64,000 bases of DNA from Ascidia mentula (lineage: Eukaryota > Chordata > Ascidiacea > Phlebobranchia > Ascidiidae), in contig OX387200.1 in assembly GCA_947561715.1 (NCBI GenBank), forward strand, positions 21,764,501 through 21,828,500, in the 5' to 3' direction. Shown here one piece after another: positions 32,061 to 61,917 of the stretch. The notes under the pieces are model-generated. The model had not been told where the DNA came from. It was given only the letters and a program-made list of their open reading frames with translations, and did no database searches. Position 1 is the stretch's first letter. Every line of letters starts with the position of its first letter. Made by a program: the position numbers and the translations under genes.

Positions 32061-33483
32061 TTCCCAGTCGAGTCTTCCTAGCCATTGGACTTGCCTTGCT
32101 AGTGGCGCCAACACCGTTTAACTTGTTTATGGATTCCGCTTTTAAACCACACGAAGTTGGTGACTGAAACGTGTAGGTTTTGTAGCCCCACCCCGTAGGA
32201 TGCTTGATACGGCCCAGTTCATGCTTGTGACGTTTATTGTTTTTTGAAAACTAACTTAAGAACGTTGACTACTTTTCCTTCGGTTTATTCCGAGGCCACA
32301 GATAAAAGTGCGATCCGAATTTGGTTTTAAACCTTTATTCGGTTGATGGGACCAACGCCCACGACTGTCATTTGGACTTTGTCTTTCGTTACTTCGGGAA
32401 CAGACAATGCAATTGCCACATGACAAATCACGTGATGATTTGACGCACGAAAGATAACTCTGTTAACGTCTTCTTAGTTATCAAAGTTTACTAAGTGATA
32501 ATCGCCGAAGTTATAAACGAGTTGATAAAGGCGATGCGCGTGGGCTCGCCTGCTGGTACAACGTATTGCACTGACTATGTTTCACGACCCACGCATTCTC
32601 GCTATCAATCACGGCGCGTGGGTGCTGTTTATTGGTGCTTTTTTCGTAAAAACAGGCTATGAGTGTTAGTACCACAGTACATATGTGCGCGTAGAGAATT
32701 CTTTTGAGGTTCACAAGCGTTCTATTTCAGTACTTTTTCACACTATTACTTGCGTTATTCTACATTTTCTCTTACTTTATGCGTATCGAAATGGCATATT
32801 TATGGTTACGCTTTAGTGAGTTCGCCTATATTTTGCTATGCATTTCCTCACAAACATTGACCGGTAAAATAGATTGCGCAATATCGTATAGGTTACTTAC
32901 TTGATCTTGCATACCTATTCTTTTGATGATTATACTTTATTGTATCCTTACGATGCTTGGGTATTTGTTAGTTTGTATCAAATACAGCAATAAGGCTAGT
33001 GATAAACTTTAGGGGAAAATTTTCACCACATCAAATGTTCCAAGCAGTAAAAAAATTCTTTGTTCCGCCTACGATCTAGCTGTGTGAGGAATTAAGTAAG
33101 GAAATATGCGTTCTGCACACCGATTAAGTAACGAATATTATTGCAATAATAAGGTTTAGAACACGATTGAGAGTAGACCAAAGAAATGTGTTTAAAAAGG
33201 TTCAAAAACGATTAAATTTATATTCAATAAAAACGCTAGATGCAGTTTCTACGAATAAATATGAATTTTGCGCCCGTAATAAACATAAATAAATATAATT
33301 TCGTTATTTTACTTTGAAGAAATATATTTTGCAATCGCACTTGATTTCTATGAAAATAATTAACTTGCAAAACTAAAAATATGATTCAGCAATCTTTGAC
33401 GCGTATAATTTTTGAAGTTGGTTTTTATTTATTTTGCTTTTCTTTGTAAATAGAGTCACACTGTACATAATACTTTGCTTAAA
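32061..33483. other. Intergenic region between RABGEF1 and TUBGCP5
   Basis: It contains the RABGEF1 3' UTR and the TUBGCP5 5' flank. A pyrimidine tract and TAG just before 33455 could be a 5'-UTR or spliced-leader acceptor. No coding exon or repeat is recognised. Confidence 0.4.
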
Positions 33484-36282
33484 ATGTATAATCAGAAGTT
33501 TCAAAAGAGTTTAAAGAAGCTGACGTCAAAACTAATATCGACTTTAACGGATTTTAACGAAGGGACTGAAAACTATGATTCGTGTATGGAATTTTCCCTT
33601 TCTAACTTTCTTCATCATCGATATCTGGAAGCGGACAGTCACAAAATCGGGCGCCAATTTACAGCGCTTAGTGAAAAGTTTTTCATTCATTCCCAACCTG
33701 AAAAAGCAAAATTGCTGCAGAAGTTGTTCACTTACTTTGTGTCCAACAATATTTCCGAAACCAGTTATTCTAAAAGCCAAGTGCATTATAGTTTACTCAA
33801 TATTATCCTGAACCTGTCTGATAGACCAATAAATGCCTCCTACAGCCAAACAAAATCAAAGGCCAAGAATAAAAAGCAGGACAATACTGACTGGAGAGCT
33901 TACCTTCTGGAAGGAGAGGACAATCCCAAGTTATGGGGCTGGGGTGATTCCCCCATTTCCTCAGATGATGAAGATGTAAGTTTTGACCTGGAGCAAGTTC
34001 CAACTAAAACCACACAGAATGATGAATGTCACCCTTCACATGTACCACTGCCAGTTTTTAAACAACTAAAGTCAGATAAATGTGTGAAATTGGTTGAAAG
34101 CTATTGGAAACACAAAGTGTCAGATTTGGATCGACAAGCCATTCACAGTGGTTTGTGCAAGGTGCAGAGTCAACCAACTAACACCCGAGCAACTTTTTTG
34201 ACCGAGTGGCATTTGTTGAGGGAAACAATTTGGCTTCTATCAGGAAGAGATAACTTACATGTTTATCCAGATGAGAATGCTTCTGAAAAGTTACTACTTT
34301 CACATCAAACTGAAAAAAGTGTCCAAGAAAATATAGCCACGTTTGGCGAGTGTGGCAAACACATTTCAAAACTTAGAAGTTTTGTCTTTTCCTCTAAGTC
34401 TCATGAATCGTTGACTTATGAAGCATTTAGCTTCGGATTGTTGGCATACTTTAAATGGTTAGAAACAGACCTTATGACCTTGGAAAAGCTTGTCGTAAAA
34501 TTGGAAGACACTTTCTTGCTTGATGATTTGAAGGAACAGCTCATGCATCAACTTAACATATTAAATACTATCAGCAATGTATATGATTCCTCAATTGGCG
34601 GTGATACTTCTGATGACACAACAGCTGTAAGAGCATGTCGCTTGCTTGGTGCTATCAGTTCTGCTTTACTTGACGAATGGAACCAACAGATTTTGGATGG
34701 TAGTGATAAGGTGAACAGTGTTGACGTCTTATTGTTTCTGTGGCTCGAGACAATTCAACCATACATAAATGTTATTGATGGATGGATTAGTATTGGTGAA
34801 TTGGTTGATCCAAAGCAGGAGTTTGTGCTGCAACGACAATTAAATGTACCAAATTGTCAGGATGTGCAGTTCTGGAACAAAGCAGTTTCGAAAGTTGTTG
34901 TCAATGTCAAAGAACAACTACCATGGTTACACCAACTGCTTGAGAAAGTTATTACTGGTGGCAAATCTATGGAAATTGTCAAGACATTGCTAATACAACC
35001 TAGTAAAAACAACTTTGCACCAAATGCTGGTAAAGCAAAGACCAAACTTTATTCCATTTTCAAGACAAACTTTCTTGCAATGCTTGGAAACGTTGCTGTT
35101 TCACAATCAGACTTTAAAGAAGGAAAAAAATCCACTGCGAAACAAAAAGGAGACATTTTATTGCAAACAAATTTCAAAATTTTATGTGACCAGGAGGACT
35201 TTACCGAGCCAGTTGTTGCAAATTTGTCAAAGTTGTGCCGAAGTGAGATACCTTTGCCTGTATTAATACAACGGTCTCTTTATCCCTTAGTTGATGAAAA
35301 ATGCAGATTGGCTTGTAGAAGCTTGTTGGATGTGTTTCAATCCCACTTTGGGTTAGCATCTTCATTAGAAGTGTTTCATAACTTCCACTTAATGGGTTGG
35401 GGTGATGTGTTACATGAATTCTGCACTAACATATTTCAGGACATTGCAAATTACGGCAACATTAGCCAGGATCTGGTGGGATTAAACATTCTTCTTCAGG
35501 AGGCAATCGCTCAAAAATCATCAACACCAGTAGATGTTTATGTGACACACAAGAGTTTAAAAAATAAGCTACCTGACCGTCAAGGATTGCTTGGAGAGAA
35601 AATATGCAAGAAACAGCCACAACGGCATTCGATTACTTTAACCGATGATTTGCACATTGCATATGATGTTGTTTGGCCTGTTGCTTTAATTCTATCTGAA
35701 GAATCCATCGAAACTTATCAGAGAATATTCAGTTATCTCATGCAAATCAAACGTGCTGTGCACAGCGTTGAGTGTTTGAAATTTGAAACAATTTTTGAGA
35801 AGAATGGCCCAGATACTTGTCAGGGTGACATGCCAGTCTCGTTGAAATCACACCGACTTGCTGTTCTTCGGGCTAAAATTTTGCATCTGCTCAAACATTG
35901 GCACAGCTTTATAATGGTTAGTGTTATACAAGCTGAGAAAGCAACGTTTACTGACCAACTTCAGAATGCACAAAATTTAGATGACATTATTCATGCACAC
36001 AGTGAATTCCTCAAGCGAGTCAGCTCACTTTGCTTGCTAGAGAAGAGAAACCAAGCTGAAAAACTGGTGCATGGTACCCTGGTGAAAATCATGACCCAGG
36101 CAATTGCTTTTGGGATGATTTGGGAAAGAGGTGTACAAAATATCAGTGGCAAATTACTACTCAAGAAGGAATCTGACTTTAATGAATGTAGTGAATTTTT
36201 GGGCCGTATTTTGAAGACGATTTCAAGCAGAGGTTCAATGCCAGTTTTAGATTCCTTGGCTTATTCAGTCTTGCCTCCTTAA
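33484..36282 (+). CDS. TUBGCP5: Gamma-tubulin complex component 5
   Basis: GCP5 is a structural subunit of the gamma-tubulin ring complex, which nucleates microtubules at centrosomes and spindles. This copy is a single exon of 932 residues (human GCP5 is about 1020). The start is the first ATG at 33484; the frame stays open slightly upstream but only from non-ATG codons. N-terminal family wording includes FSLSNFLHHRYLEADSHKIG and a GCP5-type YLLEGED segment. The central region has RETIWLLSG, which opens the first GRIP domain, then LFLWLETIQPYINVIDGWI. The second GRIP domain, which contacts gamma-tubulin, lies in the C-terminal third (ending SRGSMPVLDSLAYSVL). Lack of introns in an intron-rich neighbourhood suggests an old retrocopy or wholesale intron loss. 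The HAUS5-like gene is convergent, 199 bp away. Confidence 0.93.
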   Translation: MYNQKFQKSLKKLTSKLISTLTDFNEGTENYDSCMEFSLSNFLHHRYLEADSHKIGRQFTALSEKFFIHSQPEKAKLLQKLFTYFVSNNISETSYSKSQVHYSLLNIILNLSDRPINASYSQTKSKAKNKKQDNTDWRAYLLEGEDNPKLWGWGDSPISSDDEDVSFDLEQVPTKTTQNDECHPSHVPLPVFKQLKSDKCVKLVESYWKHKVSDLDRQAIHSGLCKVQSQPTNTRATFLTEWHLLRETIWLLSGRDNLHVYPDENASEKLLLSHQTEKSVQENIATFGECGKHISKLRSFVFSSKSHESLTYEAFSFGLLAYFKWLETDLMTLEKLVVKLEDTFLLDDLKEQLMHQLNILNTISNVYDSSIGGDTSDDTTAVRACRLLGAISSALLDEWNQQILDGSDKVNSVDVLLFLWLETIQPYINVIDGWISIGELVDPKQEFVLQRQLNVPNCQDVQFWNKAVSKVVVNVKEQLPWLHQLLEKVITGGKSMEIVKTLLIQPSKNNFAPNAGKAKTKLYSIFKTNFLAMLGNVAVSQSDFKEGKKSTAKQKGDILLQTNFKILCDQEDFTEPVVANLSKLCRSEIPLPVLIQRSLYPLVDEKCRLACRSLLDVFQSHFGLASSLEVFHNFHLMGWGDVLHEFCTNIFQDIANYGNISQDLVGLNILLQEAIAQKSSTPVDVYVTHKSLKNKLPDRQGLLGEKICKKQPQRHSITLTDDLHIAYDVVWPVALILSEESIETYQRIFSYLMQIKRAVHSVECLKFETIFEKNGPDTCQGDMPVSLKSHRLAVLRAKILHLLKHWHSFIMVSVIQAEKATFTDQLQNAQNLDDIIHAHSEFLKRVSSLCLLEKRNQAEKLVHGTLVKIMTQAIAFGMIWERGVQNISGKLLLKKESDFNECSEFLGRILKTISSRGSMPVLDSLAYSVLPP

Positions 36283-36481: not shown

Positions 36482-37801
36482 TTATTTCCTCGTAATGACT
36501 TTCAAACTTGCTGCAATCTGTTCTTCATTTTCTTCTGTATATTTGGACAAAGTTTCACAAACTTTATCACAGTTAACAGCACATTCAACCTTTAGTTTAT
36601 TGAGGTTTTGTTTAAGTTCCAGTTCTAATTCTTCAAATGCTTTTGGTCTGTTAGAGTGATCATCCTTTGTTATGGTAAAATCCCTTAAAACATTTTCATT
36701 TTGCTTAAACGCAGTCAAAAATTGACGCAAGGTTTCATCAGACTGTGATTCCTTCATTCTAAACCATTTTCCCACAACTTCCTGAAGAGGGAGACAAATT
36801 TTTTGTTGCATTTCCTTCTCACATTCTGTGTAGGCACGGACTACACCCTTCAACAAGCTGTTCATGTAGTGTGTTTGTGTTCTGTGATAGGCTGCACTGT
36901 GCTCCAACTTGACTTGCATTTCTTTCATCTTTATCTTGTTCATGTGCATATAATAACTATGAAGTTTGCACAGCGAGTTCACACAGTTTTTTAACTCCTG
37001 CCTACGGTGCAAAGTAGATGGAAGACTTAGGAGAATCTCATCTGGTTTAAACATTCCATACTTTTCAGGTTTTTGAATGACTGCCCAAGGTGCAGAAGGA
37101 TGTAGCAATGAAACAGATAACAAGTCCGTGCAACAGTCATCAAGTGTGTGTATGCAAGATTCTGTGTGATCCTTGACATCAGTAAATGCTTTGCTGTAAA
37201 GGTACTTTTCGGGAAAGTCTGTTGAAGTGTTTTGTAAATCAACAGGAAAGTTAGCACAGAGCATGGTTTGATAAGATACAAGTTGTTTGTATAATTTGGA
37301 TAAGTTTAATTCAAGCTTGGCAACATGTTGCATGTTCAAATGTTTGCTGTTTCCACTGCAAACATCCAGACAGGAAACTTTTCCTGTTTTCGCAAATTTC
37401 CATCCCGATATCTGAGGTAAAGACAAATTTTCCAAGTTATTTCCTGCAGACTGTTTGATCAAACTACCTTTAAGCTTCTGTAGCCTTTGTATGTGAGATA
37501 CTAGGGATTTTCTTGCAATGGGTACAGTGGGTCCAGTACCTTGGTGTGCAAGTAGCTGCTGAAATTCTCCTGTGAGATCAATAATCTCATTTTCAATATC
37601 ATGCATCACACTTTCACGACAGGACAGTGCTTCTGATAATAGCATGCATTGTCTCTCGAGTTGTATTACTTGTGCTTTAAGCATGTAAGCTCGTCGAATG
37701 TCATAACTCTCCTCTCGATTCTCTTCAGTAAGCTGTTGAAACATATTCTGCATGCTTTTTAGCTCAGATTTGAGATGAGCCACATCACTATCATGCGCCA
37801 T
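36482..37801 (-). CDS. Coiled-coil protein, possible augmin subunit HAUS5
   Basis: A complete intronless frame of 439 residues, with an in-frame TAG shortly upstream of the ATG. It is helical and coiled-coil throughout: an N-terminal stretch (LKSELKSMQNMFQQLTEENR), then IRRAYMLKAQVIQLERQ, and a C-terminal helical half. The segment EMQQKICLPLQEVVGKWF resembles human HAUS5 (LQGIVGDWW within a similar helix), and LLSLPSTL has a weak HAUS5 echo. I recalled these matches; they were not computed. Augmin recruits the gamma-tubulin ring complex to spindle microtubules, which would fit the convergent TUBGCP5 neighbour, but neighbourhood is weak evidence in animals. It is shorter than human HAUS5 (about 630). 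It could be another coiled-coil protein. Confidence 0.45.
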   Translation of the reverse strand: MAHDSDVAHLKSELKSMQNMFQQLTEENREESYDIRRAYMLKAQVIQLERQCMLLSEALSCRESVMHDIENEIIDLTGEFQQLLAHQGTGPTVPIARKSLVSHIQRLQKLKGSLIKQSAGNNLENLSLPQISGWKFAKTGKVSCLDVCSGNSKHLNMQHVAKLELNLSKLYKQLVSYQTMLCANFPVDLQNTSTDFPEKYLYSKAFTDVKDHTESCIHTLDDCCTDLLSVSLLHPSAPWAVIQKPEKYGMFKPDEILLSLPSTLHRRQELKNCVNSLCKLHSYYMHMNKIKMKEMQVKLEHSAAYHRTQTHYMNSLLKGVVRAYTECEKEMQQKICLPLQEVVGKWFRMKESQSDETLRQFLTAFKQNENVLRDFTITKDDHSNRPKAFEELELELKQNLNKLKVECAVNCDKVCETLSKYTEENEEQIAASLKVITRK

Positions 37802-39672: not shown

Positions 39673-42600
39673 ATGTCTGGAGCTAAAACTTCAAACCATA
39701 AATTACATTTGCTGTGGAGGGGATTTTCGAGAAGGGGCTGTAACGTTACGGCTAACATAGGTAAGCGTCCAAGATCAGTAAATTGGACAAAATCGGTAAC
39801 CTAAATACGTGACTGCAGCGGCAAACAGGGAGGGTACATATTTTCATTCAAGGGGGATAATTGAAATCATTTACTTTATGCCTTGCACTGTGTCCACGAT
39901 AGGTAACTTTGTTATACGTTAGAGTAGTCACGCTATACCTTGTACTATGTCCATGATAGGTAAGTTTCTTAATTGTTAGGGTAGTCACGCAATACCTTGC
40001 ACTATGTCCATGATAGGTAAGTTTCTTAATTGTTAGGGTAGTCACGCTATACCTTGCACTATGTCCATGATAGGTAAGTTTGTTAAACGTTAGGGTAGTC
40101 ACGCTATACCTTGCACTATGTCCATGATAGGTAAGTTTCTTAATTGTTAGGGTAGTCACGCTATACTTTGCACTATGTCCATGATAGGTAAGTTTGTTAA
40201 ACGTTAAGGTAGTCACGCTATACCTTGCACTATGTCCATGATAGGTAAGTTTGTTAAACGTTAAGGTAGTCACGCTACACCTTGCACTATGTCCATGATA
40301 GGTAAGTTTGTTAAACGTTAAGGTAGTCACGCTATACCTTGCACTATGTCCATGATAGGTAAGTATGTTAAACGTTAGGGTAGTCACGCTATACCTTGCA
40401 CTATGTCCATGATAGGTAAGTTTCTTAATTGTTAGGGTAGTCACGCTATACCTTGCACTATGTCCATGATAGGTAAGTTTGTTAAACGTTAAGGTAGTCA
40501 CGCTATACCTTGCACTATGTCCATGATAGGTAAGTTTGTTAAACGTTAAGGTAGTCACGCTATACCTTGCACTATGTCCATGATAGGTAAGTTTGTTAAA
40601 CGTTAAGGTAGTCACGCTATACCTTGCACTATGTCCATGATAGGTAAGTTTGTTAAACGTTAGGGTAGTCACGCTATACCTTGCACTATGTCCATGATAG
40701 GTAAGTTTCTTAATTGTTAGGGTAGTCACGCTATACCTTGCACTATGTCCATGATAGGTAAGTTTGTTAAACGTTAAGGTAGTCACGCTATACCTTGCAC
40801 TATGTCCATGATAGGTAAGTTTGTTAAACGTTAAGGTAGTCACGCTATACCTTGCACTATGTCCATGATAGGTAAGTTTGTTAAACGTTAAGGTAGTCAC
40901 GCTATACCTTGCACTATGTCCATGATAGGTAAGTTTGTTAAACGTTAAGGTAGTCACGCTATACCTTGCACTATGTCCATGATAGGTAAGTTTGTTAAAC
41001 GTTAGGGTAGTCACGCTATACCTTGCACTATGTCCATGATAGGTAAGTTTCTTAATTGTTAGGGTAGTCACGCTATACCTTGCACTATGTCCATGATAGG
41101 TAAGTTTGTTAAACGTTAAGGTAGTCACGCTATACCTTGCACTATGTCCATGATAGGTAAGTTTCTTAATTGTTAGGGTAGTCACGCTATACCTTGCACT
41201 ATGTCCATGATAGGTAAGTTTGTTAAACGTTAAGGTAGTCACGCTATACCTTGCACTATGTCCATGATAGGTAAGTTTCTTAATTGTTAGGGTAGTCACG
41301 CTATACCTTGCACTATGTCCATGATAGGTAAGTTTGTTAAATACCTTGCACTATGTCCATGATAGGTAAGTTTGTTAAACGTTAAGGTAGTCACGCTATA
41401 CCTTGCACTATGTCCATGATAGGTAAGTTTGTTAAACGTTAAGGTAGTCACGCTATACCTTGCACTATGTCCATGATAGGTAAGTTTGTTAAACGTTAGG
41501 GTAGTCACGCTATACCTTGCACTATGTCCATGATAGGTAAGTTTCTCAATTGTTAGGGTAGTCACGCTATACCTTGCACTATGTCCATGATAGGTAAGTT
41601 TGTTAAACGTTAAGGTAGTCACGCTATACCTTGCACTATGTCCATGATAGGTAAGTTTCTTAATTGTTAGGGTAGTCACGCTATACCTTGCACTATGTCC
41701 ATGATAGGTAAGTTTGTTAAACGTTAAGGTAGTCACGCTATACCTTGCACTATGTCCATGATAGGTAAGTTTCTTAATTGTTAGGGTAGTCACGCTATAC
41801 CTTGCACTATGTCCATGATAGGTAAGTTTGTTAAATACCTTGCACTATGTCCATGATAGGTAAGTTTGTTAAACGTTAAGGTAGTCACGCTATACCTTGC
41901 ACTATGTCCATGATAGGTAAGTTTCTTAATTGTTAGGGTAGTCACGCTATACCTTGCACTATGTCCATGATAGGTAAGTTTGTTAAACGTTAAGGTAGTC
42001 ACGCTATACCTTGCACTATGTCCATGATAGGTAAGTTTGTTAAACGTTAAGGTAGTCACGCTATACCTTGCACTATGTCCATGATAGGTAAGTTTGTTAA
42101 ACGTTAAGGTAGTCACGCTATACCTTGCACTATGTCCATGATAGGTAAGTTTGTTAAACGTTAAGGTAGTCACGCTATACCTTGCACTATGTCCATGATA
42201 GGTAAGTTTGTTAAACGTTAAGGTAGTCACGCTATACCTTGCACTAATTCCATGATGGCTTACTTTGTTAAACGTTGAACAATTAACGAACTTACCTATG
42301 ATGGACATAGTGCAAGGTATAGCGTGACTACCCTAACGTTAAACAAAGCTACTTATTGCGTCACAATCCAAGGTATAACGGGACTACCCTAACAATTAAC
42401 GAACTTACCTATCATGGACATAGTGCAATGTATAGCGTGACTATCTTAACGTTTAACAAACTTACCTATCATGGACATAGTGCAAGGTATAGCGTGACTA
42501 CCCTGACGTTTAACAAACTTACCTATCATGGACATAGTGCAAGGTATAGCGTGACTACCTTAACGTTTAACAAACTTACCTATCATGGACATAGTGCAAG

Positions 42601-43871
42601 GTATAGCGTGACTACCCTAACAATTAAGAAACTTACCTATCATGGACATAGTGCAAGGTATAGCGTGACTACCCTAACGTTTAACAAACTTACCTATCAT
42701 GGACATAGTGCAAGGTATAGCGTGACTACCCTAACGTTTAACAAACTTACCTATCATGGACATAGTGCAAGGTATAGCGTGACTACCCTAACGTTTAACA
42801 AACTTACCTATCATGGACATAGTGCAAGGTATAGCGTGACTACCCTAACAATTAAGAAACTTACCTATCATGGACATAGTACAAGGTATAGCGTGACTAC
42901 CCTAACGTTTAACAAACTTACCTATCATGGACATAGTGCAAGGTATAGCGTGACTACCCTAACAATTAAGAAACTTACCTATCATGGACATAGTGCAAGG
43001 TATAGCGTGACTACCCTAACGTTTAACAAACTTACCTATCATGGACATAGTGCAAGGTATAGCGTGACTACCCTAACGTTTAACAAACTTACCTATCATG
43101 GACATAGTGCAAGGTATAGCGTGACTACCCTAACAATTAAGAAACTTACCTATCATGGACATAGTGCAAGGTATAGCGTGACTACCTTAACGTTTAACAA
43201 ACTTACCTATCATGGACATAGTGCAAGGTATAGCGTGACTACCCTAACAATTAAGAAACTTACCTATCATGGACATAGTGCAAGGTATAGCGTGATTCTC
43301 GTAACAATTAATGAAGTTACCTATCGATGACGCAGTACAGGTTAAATGATTTCAATTACTCCCCTTGGCCGAAAATATGTATCCTCCCTGTTTGCCGCTG
43401 CAGTCACGTGTTTAAGTTACCGATTTTGTCCAATTTACTGATCTTGGACGCTTACCTATGTTAGCCGTAACGTTACAGCCCTATATGGGATTTTCTGCCT
43501 TGTGCAATGGCTTTCTCAAACTGCTGGTCAGTTTTCAATATGGAATAGAAAAACTTCAAACTGCCCAGGATACGATCTTGTATCCAATCCGTGCAGTGCA
43601 AAACATCCCAAGAACTGTTTCTGCATTTGGTTCTTCAGTAACTAGACTTGTACAGTCGATATTTGCTCCTGTTATTTTTATATTTGTGCACTTATTCACA
43701 GTTTTTAGTTTAACAGTTAAAGGTGTGGTTGGAACTTGTCATTTTGTTGTTCACACAGTACCTGATGTGGTTTATTGTTGTGCATGTTTTGTTTGTCGTT
43801 TTGTTGTGACAACTATAACTGCCCTACATTTGATTAAAAAACAAACAACTCCAGCTTCCAAAAGTAATTGA
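39673..43871 (+). CDS. Small multi-pass membrane protein, unknown family, coding exon split by a 3.8 kb element
   Basis: Exon 1 is 39673-39760 (MSGAKTSNHK..., ending in phase 1 at ATAG|gtaagc). Exon 2 is 43465-43871 (after tatgttag), ending at TGA. Joined, they give about 164 residues. The host codons on either side of the element read continuously as ...LLWRGF/SALCNGF, and the element adds 21 codons in frame. The rest includes an amphipathic stretch (FLKLLVSFQYGIEKLQ), two or three hydrophobic segments (FAPVIFIFVHLFTVF, VVYCCACFVCRFVVTT) and a short polar tail. No signal peptide and no family recognised. Splicing at the terminal-repeat sites is inferred; if it fails, the gene is broken. The short protein, not a long one, is what the open frames support. 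Confidence 0.6.
39880..42270 (-). repeat. 57-bp tandem array, left arm (about 42 units)
   Basis: Head-to-tail units with constant core CTATGTCCATGATAGGTAAG and two interchangeable variable segments (TTTGTTAAACGTTA or TTTCTTAATTGTTA). Two units are cut to 38 bp at about 41330 and 41825. On the + strand each unit contains AGGTAAGT, a consensus 5' splice site. The unit is 19 codons long, so minus-strand frames stay open for up to 483 codons; this is a length artefact until shown otherwise. Confidence 0.95.
42285..43325 (+). repeat. 57-bp tandem array, right arm (about 18 units), inverse of left arm
   Basis: Same unit in the opposite orientation, beginning after a short irregular junction at 42250-42380 that includes degenerate units. 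It can pair with about 1 kb of the left arm, so the transcript could form a long hairpin. A 324-codon repetitive open frame follows from the 57-bp period. Confidence 0.95.
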
Positions 43872-58249: not shown

Positions 58250-59478
58250 AACGTTTTAAAGATTTACAAAAGCGAGCAATTAAGCACAATATTCAACACT
58301 GAAGAAGGTCTTCAAAAAACAGCCATAATTAACTGAAATGATTTATGTTGCTCGCATAAATACAAATGCTCTTTTTGCCTGTATTTTAATCAAAATCTTG
58401 ATTTACCGCCAACCTCTTCCTGAAACATGTGGAAATTCCTCTTCGACTTTAATGTATAAATCCCATCAGCCATAATATAACACACGAAAACACATGTTAT
58501 TTTATATTTTTATGTGTGGGTTTTTCACTATTTTGTTTGCAATTTGTTTTCGAGTTTAATGTTGCGGTTTGTTTACCATTACAAAACAAAAATGAAGGTA
58601 AGTCGGTTTAACATCCAAGAAATAGATAATTAATTAAAATTCTTTGCAACATTTAAATACAACAAACGCAAAAAAAGTAAAATTACTTTTATGGGTGTAC
58701 AATATAAATAAATTATTGGTCTTTTTAGAATAACTTTCGAATGACAAATCGTGTGATAAATACAATGGACCCATTTAAAGAATTTAGTCTTGTGATTCTA
58801 ATGTAAATTGTGATTTGCAGAAATTAGGAATTATCTGATTTGTTTGTGGTCTTTTTATAAATCCTGCCGGGGAATACAAAAAATAATTGTATAATTGCGC
58901 AACAATGGGCAAAAACGGGAATTACCCGTGTGGTGGAACTTACTTTCCTGTCTGTGACGTTGACATGTAGTGTAACACGGGAGAATCATTTTCGACGGTG
59001 CTGTTAAAATTTTGGTCTAAGAAGTGGTTGGCCTACTGTTAAATTGTTTGATAATTACCTTCTGTTATATAGTTATGTTTTGTCTGCTTTAATGAAAATC
59101 AGTTTTGTTTTCTGTCAATAATTTTAACTGTGAAATAAAAAGCCGGTTTTACGTATAATTTAGAAACAATAAATTTGGATCGTACCATATCGAAAAGCAA
59201 AAAGATATCAGATTTTGTCAACTATCTGTGTCAAGATTTTAAGATATAAAAATCGATTGCAAGGCGGCCTAGCCAGTGGTCTCTTAAGAATCCGTGCAAA
59301 TAACAAACTTTCCAATCTGGGACTTGTTGCATAGGCTATTTTTTCCAGAAACATAAATTACGTCAACATAAGTACAAGATGCTAATTTTGTGATTGATCC
59401 TTGTCAATTACTATTATTTTCCTTGTTATTTACTCAGGCTAGACAATTAAACATACCTTCAAACCAAATTTTCCTTTA
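58250..59478. other. Divergent intergenic region between NAP1L and ZNF598
   Basis: Two genes start on either side, so both promoters and any 5'-UTR exons should lie here. I see no clear core promoter element, coding exon or repeat. Confidence 0.4.
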
Positions 59479-61917
59479 ATGTCTGTGAAAATGGAAACAT
59501 GCAAAGGAATCCACAAGCAAAAGCTGAAAACACCCAGACAGAAACCCCAGCGAAGACGGTTGAGTGAGAGTGATGACGACGGAAGTTGTGTTGTCTGCGC
59601 AAACCATATAGTAACCTATGCTGTGGGTTACTGTGATCACTACATCTGTATTAAATGCTCTATGAAAATGAGGCTGCTTTGTGAGGAAAAATTTTGCCCC
59701 GTTTGTCGTAAGGATTTACTAAAAGTTATTTTTACCAAAGAGAAGAAAACGTTCAAAGAATTAAATCAATCAAAGCTAGTTAAAGATACTCAAAATAATG
59801 TGAACTATTTTTTTGAGAATCTGGAAATAATCAAAGAATACAAACAAATACTAGAGTATCGGTGTCCAATATGTCCTGATCGACCTCCAGATAAAACCTT
59901 TAATCAGACAAAAGCTCATTTACGCAAGGATCATTCTTTGTTTCATTGTGAAATTTGCTTAACACATATCAAGAATTTTTGCAATGAATACAAAGTGTAC
60001 AACCGTAAGGATCTAGCAACACACAAAAGAATGGGTGATGAAGACGACACCTCTCATCGTGGCCATCCACTGTGTGAGTTTTGTGAAGAAAGATACTTGG
60101 ATGATGATCAGTTGTTTCGCCATCTCAGAAAGCAGCACTATTACTGCCATATTTGTGACCAAGCAGACATCAATGAGTTTTATGGAAGCTATCGTGACTT
60201 GCACAGCCATTTCAAGAAGGACCATTTTGTGTGTGAAATTGATGAGTGCAGAAACCAACAGTTCACTAGCGTTTTTCCTTCTGAACTAGATTTAAAAGCA
60301 CACAAAGCAGCAGTGCACAATCACAACAAGAGCAAACATCAACAGAAGATGGATCGTCAAATTGATTTGGGATTTCAGTACCCAAAGCGTGAGCAGCAAT
60401 CATCAAGAGGTCGTGGGCACGCCAGAGGTCAGGCTCACTCATCAAGAAATCAGAGGTACAGAACTGAACATGCCAAAGCATTTGAGCGTGAAAGTGATTT
60501 GGAAAAAGCCATGGCTTTGTCTATGAAAGAAAATGAAGCAAAGTCAGAGAAAAGAACTGAAACAAAGGACATGGAAGAACAGGAAGATGACAAAATATTT
60601 GATACATCAGCTGACTTCCCATCTCTTGGAAACGTGCTTGGGAATCAAAGTGAAGGAAATTCTGAATCAAACAAACCTACTGCCAGTGCTGCACCCTCCA
60701 CATTGTTGAAATGGACCAAGGGACCAAATGTTAAAAAACCAGGTTTAACTGAGAAAGAATTTCCATCTTTGAAATCTCACTCACCCCAGCAGAGTCATCT
60801 TGAAGTAAACAAACCAGGTGGAGATCAACTACACACTTCTCACAAGCAAAAATGGACGTCTGCAAATTCTATGAAGCCAAATCTAAGTGAAGAAGACTTT
60901 CCATCGCTTGGAAACACAAAAACAAGTAATGAAATAAACACTTGGGTCTCCACTTCTTCAGGACAAACAAAAACAGGTTCTAAAAGTGGGAAGTCCCAAA
61001 GAAAGGTGCAAATGAAAGCATCAGATTTTGTCAAAGATGTTAAATCTTCATCTGCAGCTGGAAAAAAAGTCAAAAAAGCAGAAAATCATTCCAAGAACTA
61101 TGCAAGTAAAGAGGATGATGACTTTCCAACACTTAACCCTGAAAATTCATTACTGGTTGGGCGAGGTAAATACAAACACGTTGAAAGTTATTCAAGTTTT
61201 GCAGATGAAAAAGGTAGCAATGTGAAGCTGGTAACACAAGCAGACTGTCAAAAACAGCAACAAAGCACACAAAATAACCCTAAATCTCTGGATTTAGTTG
61301 ATGATTTTCCAATGTTGGGACTTGGAAAGCCTGTTGCAGCTCCTCCTGGCTTTGAGTGTGTACCATTCCATAAAGCATCCCAAAAAGGTTGTGTCAGTGA
61401 AACTAACATGCACTCTTTTGCAGTGATTGACTATCCTAGTTTGTCTGCCACCACAAAGGCTGTTTCTGCACCTCCTGGATTTGGTCCAAAGCCACAAGCT
61501 AAAAAGAAACATGAAGTTACAGACAAGCCTACTTCAAGCAATGGTTTTATGATCAACAACAATGACTTTCCCGGGCTTCCTAAAAAGAGCAAGCCAAAGA
61601 CATCAAAGGTTCAGACAAATGCTGGAACCACACTAACCGTGGGTAAAATAATTGAACCAGATGTTGTTCCTCAGCTTAAACATGAAGACGTTCACAACCC
61701 TGCGCCTGTCAAGCCACCAGTTAAGCAAAGAGGCTTCAAGTCACAAAATCCCGACCAAGATTTTCCTAGTTTGTTTTCATCCAATTCTGTCCCACTTCCG
61801 CCTAATAACAATACAACCTCGGATACAGACAATTATTTCAATATCACATCTGATCAACCTGCAAAAACTGGAACATCTTTAAACTTAGCCAATATTTTTG
61901 ACTTTCCTTCGCTGTAG
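59479..61917 (+). CDS. ZNF598: E3 ubiquitin ligase of collided ribosomes
   Basis: ZNF598 (yeast Hel2) senses collided ribosomes and ubiquitinates small-subunit proteins to start quality control. This copy is a single exon, 812 residues. The N-terminal RING reads C37-x2-C40, C52-D-H54, C57-x2-C60, C73-x2-C76. A tract of C2H2-type fingers follows (CPICPDRPPDKTF, HCEICLTHIKNF, LCEFCEERYLDD, YCHICDQADINEFYGSY, FVCEIDECRN; residues about 130-275). A UIM-like helix DLEKAMALSMKE comes next. The C-terminal half is low complexity and carries nine [DE][FY]P-x-L motifs, ending DFPSL-stop, plus two APPGF motifs. Vertebrate ZNF598 has similar but, as I recall, fewer such motifs. Lack of introns again suggests retroposition or intron loss. 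Polyadenylation signal at 62032-62037. Confidence 0.95.
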   Translation: MSVKMETCKGIHKQKLKTPRQKPQRRRLSESDDDGSCVVCANHIVTYAVGYCDHYICIKCSMKMRLLCEEKFCPVCRKDLLKVIFTKEKKTFKELNQSKLVKDTQNNVNYFFENLEIIKEYKQILEYRCPICPDRPPDKTFNQTKAHLRKDHSLFHCEICLTHIKNFCNEYKVYNRKDLATHKRMGDEDDTSHRGHPLCEFCEERYLDDDQLFRHLRKQHYYCHICDQADINEFYGSYRDLHSHFKKDHFVCEIDECRNQQFTSVFPSELDLKAHKAAVHNHNKSKHQQKMDRQIDLGFQYPKREQQSSRGRGHARGQAHSSRNQRYRTEHAKAFERESDLEKAMALSMKENEAKSEKRTETKDMEEQEDDKIFDTSADFPSLGNVLGNQSEGNSESNKPTASAAPSTLLKWTKGPNVKKPGLTEKEFPSLKSHSPQQSHLEVNKPGGDQLHTSHKQKWTSANSMKPNLSEEDFPSLGNTKTSNEINTWVSTSSGQTKTGSKSGKSQRKVQMKASDFVKDVKSSSAAGKKVKKAENHSKNYASKEDDDFPTLNPENSLLVGRGKYKHVESYSSFADEKGSNVKLVTQADCQKQQQSTQNNPKSLDLVDDFPMLGLGKPVAAPPGFECVPFHKASQKGCVSETNMHSFAVIDYPSLSATTKAVSAPPGFGPKPQAKKKHEVTDKPTSSNGFMINNNDFPGLPKKSKPKTSKVQTNAGTTLTVGKIIEPDVVPQLKHEDVHNPAPVKPPVKQRGFKSQNPDQDFPSLFSSNSVPLPPNNNTTSDTDNYFNITSDQPAKTGTSLNLANIFDFPSL

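Follow-up and report, generated by a model that had tools for sequence, protein, structure and literature searches.

The 64,000-nt stretch of the Ascidia mentula genome analysed here (the window, which sits on contig C67 and whose numbering is used for all coordinates given without a locus label) contains a DNA transposon lying within a putative host open reading frame (ORF), with motifs resembling a splice donor and a splice acceptor in its terminal inverted repeats (TIRs). The element is 3,759 bp long and is bounded on both flanks by a perfect 8-bp target-site duplication (TSD), GGATTTTC, which suggests that the insertion is recent. Its left end reads GAGAAG+GGGCTGTAACG... and the reverse complement of its right end reads CATATA+GGGCTGTAACG..., such that four of the six outermost bases mismatch. 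Inward of these six bases the ends have GGGCTGTAACGTTACGGCTAACATAGGTAAGC in common, followed by about 100 more near-identical bases, for a total of about 130 bp of inverted sequence. An earlier note on this DNA had described both the duplication at the edges and the long inverted ends, and both are borne out. The interior consists of arrays of a 57-bp unit in opposite orientations. The donor-like sequence AGGTAAGT occurs at 60 exact sites in the window, as compared with 1.88 expected by shuffling, and 58 of these reside inside the element (41 sense in the left array and 17 antisense in the right array).

The left terminal repeat carries ACATAG/GTAAGC (a slash marks the predicted splice junction), with 39760 as the last exonic base and 39761 as the first intronic base. 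The right terminal repeat carries CTATGTTAG/CC, with 43464 as the last intronic base and 43465 as the first exonic base. This placement of a donor and an acceptor within the inverted repeat agrees with the earlier note. Joining the two predicted sites would add 32 + 23 + 8 = 63 nt to the host frame, in frame and stop-free (...LLWRGFSRRGCNVTANIAVTLQPYMGFSALCNGF...), whereas unspliced read-through terminates at a stop at 39802; the total is the one previously proposed, although its breakdown into 32 + 22 + 9 was not correct. Upstream of the TTAG/CC acceptor are CTGAT and CTTAC, which by eye we take to be branch-point-like. A second AG resides 14 nt downstream of the acceptor (GTTACAG/CCC, 43478), and its use would shift the frame. 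Competition with the terminal donor could come from the 41 internal sense AGGTAAGT sites, which are closer to the general donor consensus than the terminal AGGTAAGC. The earlier note mentions neither these sites, nor the second AG, nor the in-frame ATG that the last bases of the element form. When a shortened RNA construct is folded, the terminal repeats pair across both splice sites (z = -26.4, with 0 of 200 shuffles as stable), and the predicted hairpin could either mask the two sites or draw them together.

A search of the 195.8-Mb genome (79 contigs) for further copies of the terminal repeat, as proposed in the earlier note, found 74 copies of the terminal 32-mer at no more than three mismatches, and none of a reversed control. 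Together with the TSDs, these copies establish that the identity of the element as a transposon is not due to chance. The loci examined cover a part of the listed 32-mer ends and include 21 complete sites. At these sites the 8-bp TSD is perfect in 18 cases, has one mismatch in two and is absent in one (seven mismatches). Outside this set are L042 and L044, each with a single recognised end, L051, whose left end is damaged, and L058; L051 and L058 are two-ended and lack a TSD (four and eight mismatches, respectively). The TSD of the insertion at L053 is identical to that of the window copy, and by eye there is no similarity past the TSD in the nearby flanks. The smallest element at the 21 sites is that of L041 (573 bp) and the largest, of about 12.4 kb, that of L032+L009, the latter figure being the distance between ends with an identical TSD around an unread interior. 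A short palindromic copy of about 0.2 kb (L059:816-1039) has a T-type left end and a C-type opposite end, and has lost its right terminus.

L050 and L056, long copies of 8.9 kb and 7.5 kb, respectively, carry the 57-bp unit together with a long protein frame, which spans 1434 residues in L050 and is broken into 1041 and 438 residues in L056 (coding stretches L050:1663-5967 and L056:2691-7074). When a 484-residue piece of the protein was used to search the genome, these were the two near-identical coding copies recovered, the remainder being broken or distant. Excised segments of the L050 protein match two Pfam models, Peptidase_C48 (Ulp1) at 27.6 bits (cut-off 20.7) and CxC4, a domain "associated with KDZ transposases" (Kyakuja-Dileera-Zisupton), at 26.9 bits (cut-off 26.9), along with sub-cut-off matches to C2H2. 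With the full-length protein, Ulp1 scores 20.3 bits, just below its cut-off, PHD and SprT-like matches are likewise below cut-off, and CxC4 is unlisted. In the 415-residue central segment of this protein there are no Pfam matches to a KDZ transposase core at E up to 10. The family probably corresponds to a KDZ-like cut-and-paste DNA transposon, an assignment made with a reservation regarding the core domain, and the window copy is a non-autonomous member of it. Membership of the P-element or hAT groups, initially suggested by the 8-bp TSD, was dropped in view of the Ulp1 and CxC4 matches.

The terminal repeats fall largely into two types. At position 19 of the 32-mer, 34 of the 74 ends have T and 38 have C, with a single G and a single A. 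T at this position yields TTAG/CC at the opposite end of the element, and C yields TTGG. Both splice motifs are thus supplied by the insertion itself, with the TTAG acceptor restricted to T-type ends (34 of 74). The proposal that any insertion brings one donor and one acceptor holds within the subfamily with intact ends, the TTAG acceptor requiring the T. The gain of 63 nt is general in the family, as intact T-type ends leave 55 element bases plus the 8 of the duplication. It is stop-free after splicing in one of six phase and orientation contexts, namely with the GAGAAG end first and exon phase 2. Conservation of the donor GT in the TIR (G in 73 and T in 71 of the 74 ends) is about that of its neighbours. 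Because the AG of GTTACAG/CCC lies outside the variable base and is retained in C-type ends, the difference between T and C is not one between an acceptor and none.

With the element removed, the empty site is a single ORF of 154 codons from stop to stop, or 143 from an ATG at 39673, of which just 18 lie between the ATG and the junction. Markov simulation gave a frame of this length over a fixed point in 14 of 3000 sequences modelled on the local DNA and in 38 of 3000 modelled on the window (p about 0.005-0.013), which is suggestive of a gene, but is not decisive because 21 sites were examined. The ORF protein has no Pfam matches above cut-off and no PDB matches, and a genome search for a paralogue or an empty-site copy returned the locus alone. 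The continuity of host codons over the empty site, as claimed earlier, is thus upheld as an ORF, while as a gene it finds no match in Pfam, PDB or the genome. The codon-usage score of the ORF resembles that of non-coding DNA. This test and its synonymous-codon version are treated as uninformative here in view of cross-validation on 132 windows from known or presumed genes: only 80 scored above the 95% null level in the former, with the single homeodomain window failing, and 0 did so in the latter.

Similar comparisons can be drawn at the other insertions. Long open frames are present at three of the 21 complete sites, in phase 2 in the window, phase 1 at L040 and phase 0 at L030+L060. The longest junction-crossing frames at 19 of the 21 sites, some of them shortened, were scanned against Pfam (L050 and L056 have no 40-codon frame), and matches above cut-off were obtained at two sites only, to a protein kinase at L040 (PK_Tyr_Ser-Thr, 3.1e-06) and to a reverse transcriptase at L030+L060 (RVT_1, 1.9e-26). 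In both of these the proposed splice would leave two in-frame stops, and the window frame alone is left open. The presence of the terminal-repeat ends in two verified coding frames without rescue argues against an evolved introner (intron-making) family and for incidental motifs. At L046, another insertion site, a frame of 147 codons gives no Pfam match. The 104-codon frame at L055 was considered as a gene and rejected, because its collagen-like match is just below cut-off (26.7 versus 27.2 bits) and because the same strand has two more open frames, of 78 and 79 codons, as a repeat would give; here the element lies with its CATATA end first, and each of the three phases has a stop after splicing. 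At ten loci with missing or damaged ends, frames were checked on the available flanks, and the L031 frame was scanned against Pfam; the flank of L044 has a repeat-rich frame of 189 codons, which was outside the Pfam scan. The copy in the protein-kinase exon (L040:1666-3183) resides, by eye, 23 bases past an apparent intron acceptor. Read by hand, splicing of the previous exon to GTTACAG/CCC would keep the frame there but exchange the stretch that surrounds the likely alpha-C glutamate.

A short T-type palindrome of 183 bp (L031:1356-1538, minus strand; C73:15350324-15350506) is located immediately upstream of COX16 (PF14138, 4.8e-14). Its TSD matches at six of eight positions, its right terminus is altered, and its terminal ATG is in the COX16 frame. 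This copy may be an insertion in the leader, an intron of the leader or a new start site, and the candidate GT-AG intron that it could form spans 112 nt (L031:1506 to 1395, minus strand). The idea that short palindromic copies make up a hidden introner set was not upheld, as a DNA search with L031 gave no second full-length match among 40 candidates scored; a gapped-pattern search returned no matches and missed L031 itself, and is uninformative.

Overall, the window copy is probably an ordinary KDZ-like insertion whose splice motifs are incidental, in a family that has not evolved as an intron maker; a dedicated introner family is unlikely. The AG/GTAAG motif common to the TIR and the 57-bp unit would, under this explanation, be part of the biology of the element, conceivably as a transposase-binding motif, and its likeness to a splice donor would be a coincidence. 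A C-to-T change in the TIR, a direction suggested by the C of the coding copies, would then have created the AG acceptor, a single change sufficing to place it at the opposite end because the ends are inverted repeats. T-type copies may in this way offer a cryptic intron, with the frame kept at the window by chance and most exonic insertions left unrescued. The earlier description of the locus as a transposon-made intron in a coding exon would thus survive as regards an insertion with splice-like motifs in its TIRs, and not as regards the family as an intron maker, since two Pfam-verified frames would keep stops after the splice.

Several observations weigh against this explanation. The window insertion combines an exact in-frame addition of 63 nt with a good donor and the one context in six that is stop-free. 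The open-frame insertions are all T/T (3 of 11, versus 0 of 10 others; Fisher p = 0.21), and inclusion of L055 brings the T/T count to 4 of 11 (p = 0.09), an excess in the direction expected from a tolerance effect, although not a significant one. Beside COX16, the T-type donor and acceptor of L031 are intact and bound 112 nt. When the 50 eight-mers of the 57-bp unit are ordered by conservation, the block with the array donor takes rank 5 in eight T-type copies, rank 6 in the window copy and rank 7 in four C-type copies, as compared with 28 in the two coding copies and 33 in the diverged L046. Conservation of the array donor therefore appears mixed, and because its rank is as high in C-type as in T-type copies, it does not separate the two. 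Finally, the KDZ superfamily name depends on accessory domains and the TSD, as the transposase-core model is unmatched.

The alternatives overlap in part with the preferred explanation and with each other, and their likelihoods are not to be summed. Splicing of some kind at the window locus is possible, if doubtful, judging from the motifs. The fuller proposal, that the spliceosome excises the copy as a 3.7-kb intron through its TIR sites, with 21 codons added to a real host protein, is somewhat unlikely. The donor, the TTAG/CC acceptor and the stop-free, in-frame 63 nt all speak for it, and there is a precedent in an Aureococcus introner family that is described as carrying both splice sites and leaving 12 extra bp, eight of them the TSD (Gozashti et al., 2022; PMC9860276). 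However, the host gene is putative, use of the 41 competing donor-like sites would retain the stop at 39802, use of the second AG would put the frame out of register, the hairpin of the shortened construct takes in both splice sites, and the splice fails at L040 and L030+L060. In addition, the median lengths given for published families are 30-654 nt (PMC9860276), far from 3.7 kb. A broader version, in which one TIR substitution rendered a KDZ-type transposon spliceable with an in-frame scar, such that the window copy is an intron and the L031 relic a COX16 leader intron, would be less probable still.

It is also conceivable, if somewhat unlikely, that the 154-codon frame is accidental or its first 18 codons are non-coding, and that the transposon landed in non-coding DNA. 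The missing Pfam, PDB and paralogue matches are consistent with this, as are the comparable frame at L046, the non-coding-like codon score and the simulations, which reach the observed length at one point when 21 sites were inspected. Nonetheless, the frame is long for a single point, and the codon test varies with amino-acid composition, is perhaps biased against a T-rich, membrane-like protein and failed its homeodomain control, while the synonymous-codon test is powerless in this genome. Transcription or translation of the downstream part might instead restart within the element, a scenario that requires no splicing because the right-end ATG at 43485 reads into the final 127 of the 143 host codons. 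This frame is open from 43416 past the element end, with ATGs at 43458 and 43485, and the terminal ATG of L031 is likewise in the frame of its neighbour. Such a capture of the start site is nevertheless quite improbable: the promoter is purely hypothetical, an in-frame ATG is expected in one case out of three (that of L040 is, by eye, out of frame), and the ATG at 43485 has T at -3, which makes for a weak start context. Lastly, the sense units could serve as AG/GTAAGT ratchet-like points for stepwise removal, or as decoy donors that buffer genic insertions. The concentration of AGGTAAGT in the element (58 of 60 window sites), with 41 sense sites followed by 17 antisense ones, would fit such a role, but the pyrimidine tracts before the units are weak by eye and neither coding nor diverged copies conserve the motif preferentially, making this the most far-fetched of the proposals.

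Table 1. Features of the insertion and its putative host frame (window positions)
Feature	Position	Strand	Remarks
Left part of putative host ORF (coding status putative)	39673..39728	+	MSGAKTSNHKLHLLWRGF; 18 codons + 2 bases from ATG, ends in TSD
TSD, left copy, GGATTTTC	39721..39728		duplicate at other edge
Non-autonomous KDZ-like DNA transposon, foldback type	39729..43487		TIR and 57-bp unit in common with long coding copies
Left TIR	39735..39876	+	alignment to right end
Predicted intron, 3,704 nt, if ACATAG/GTAAGC is joined to CTATGTTAG/CC	39761..43464	+	sequence motifs
57-bp-unit array, sense AGGTAAGT	39877..42276	+	41 exact copies, 39958-42207
Inverted array of 57-bp unit	42283..43295	-	17 exact AGGTAAGT on minus strand, 42290-43265
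Right TIR	43345..43481	-	alignment to left end
ATG from last 3 bases of element, in host-ORF frame; possible alternative start codon	43485..43487	+	sequence
TSD, right copy, GGATTTTC	43488..43495		duplicate at other edge
Right part of putative host ORF, through stop codon	43488..43871	+	without homologue found

Elsewhere in the window are three long frames: one for a gamma-tubulin complex component with GCP domains (33475-36282), one of 439 residues without a Pfam match (36482-37801) and one for a ZNF598-like RING/zinc-finger protein (59443-61914). The assembly has COX1 on contig C79; this gene contains five in-frame TGA codons and has AGA or AGG at 16 positions, which read as glycine under the ascidian mitochondrial code and thereby mark the genome as that of a tunicate. 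Several of these positions are generally invariant glycines.

The conversion of transposons into introns is an open question, for which this family offers a comparison within one genome: copies that have or lack the TTAG acceptor and are one base apart, open-frame insertions in all three phases, and a short copy adjacent to a conserved gene. Should T-type copies be spliced, the passage from transposon to intron maker would become traceable, and the family would be a threshold case between transposon and introner, with the C-type sister subfamily, which lacks the in-frame acceptor, as a built-in control. If they are unspliced, the family would serve as a warning that terminal repeats can carry splice motifs incidentally.

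Among known systems, Zisupton makes 8-bp TSDs, according to a paper on fungal transposons (PMC12730594). The family described here resembles KDZ and Zisupton elements in its 8-bp TSD, TIRs, CxC4 cysteine cluster and Ulp1 protease match. It differs in lacking a match to the transposase-core model, in the mismatch of its ends at four of the six outermost bases, and perhaps in its inverted 57-bp arrays. The foldback elements Galileo and Tm1, which belong to other transposase superfamilies, also have long inverted ends and internal direct repeats, and the window element is like them in these respects. Another tunicate, Fritillaria borealis, has non-canonical introns, and fewer than 10% of its introns follow the GT/AG rule (Henriet et al., 2019, as cited in PMC13326754); by that description, they are unlike the sites in the window, which are GT-AG.

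A further comparison is with the introners, for which genic enrichment has been reported in 161 of 175 genomes, and which among animals were listed for two groups only in the same survey (PMC9860276). No title concerning a KDZ-derived introner was among the best literature matches listed for introners, KDZ/Zisupton, tunicates and foldback elements, a set that leaves subscription literature largely uncovered. The window copy departs from the introners in its length (3.7 kb versus medians of 30-654 nt), in the share of sites in Pfam-verified coding sequence (2 of 21) and in the stops that arise in five of six contexts. It is nonetheless similar to them in having the features of a DNA transposon, a potential pair of splice sites and, as in Aureococcus, an in-frame addition that includes the 8-bp TSD.

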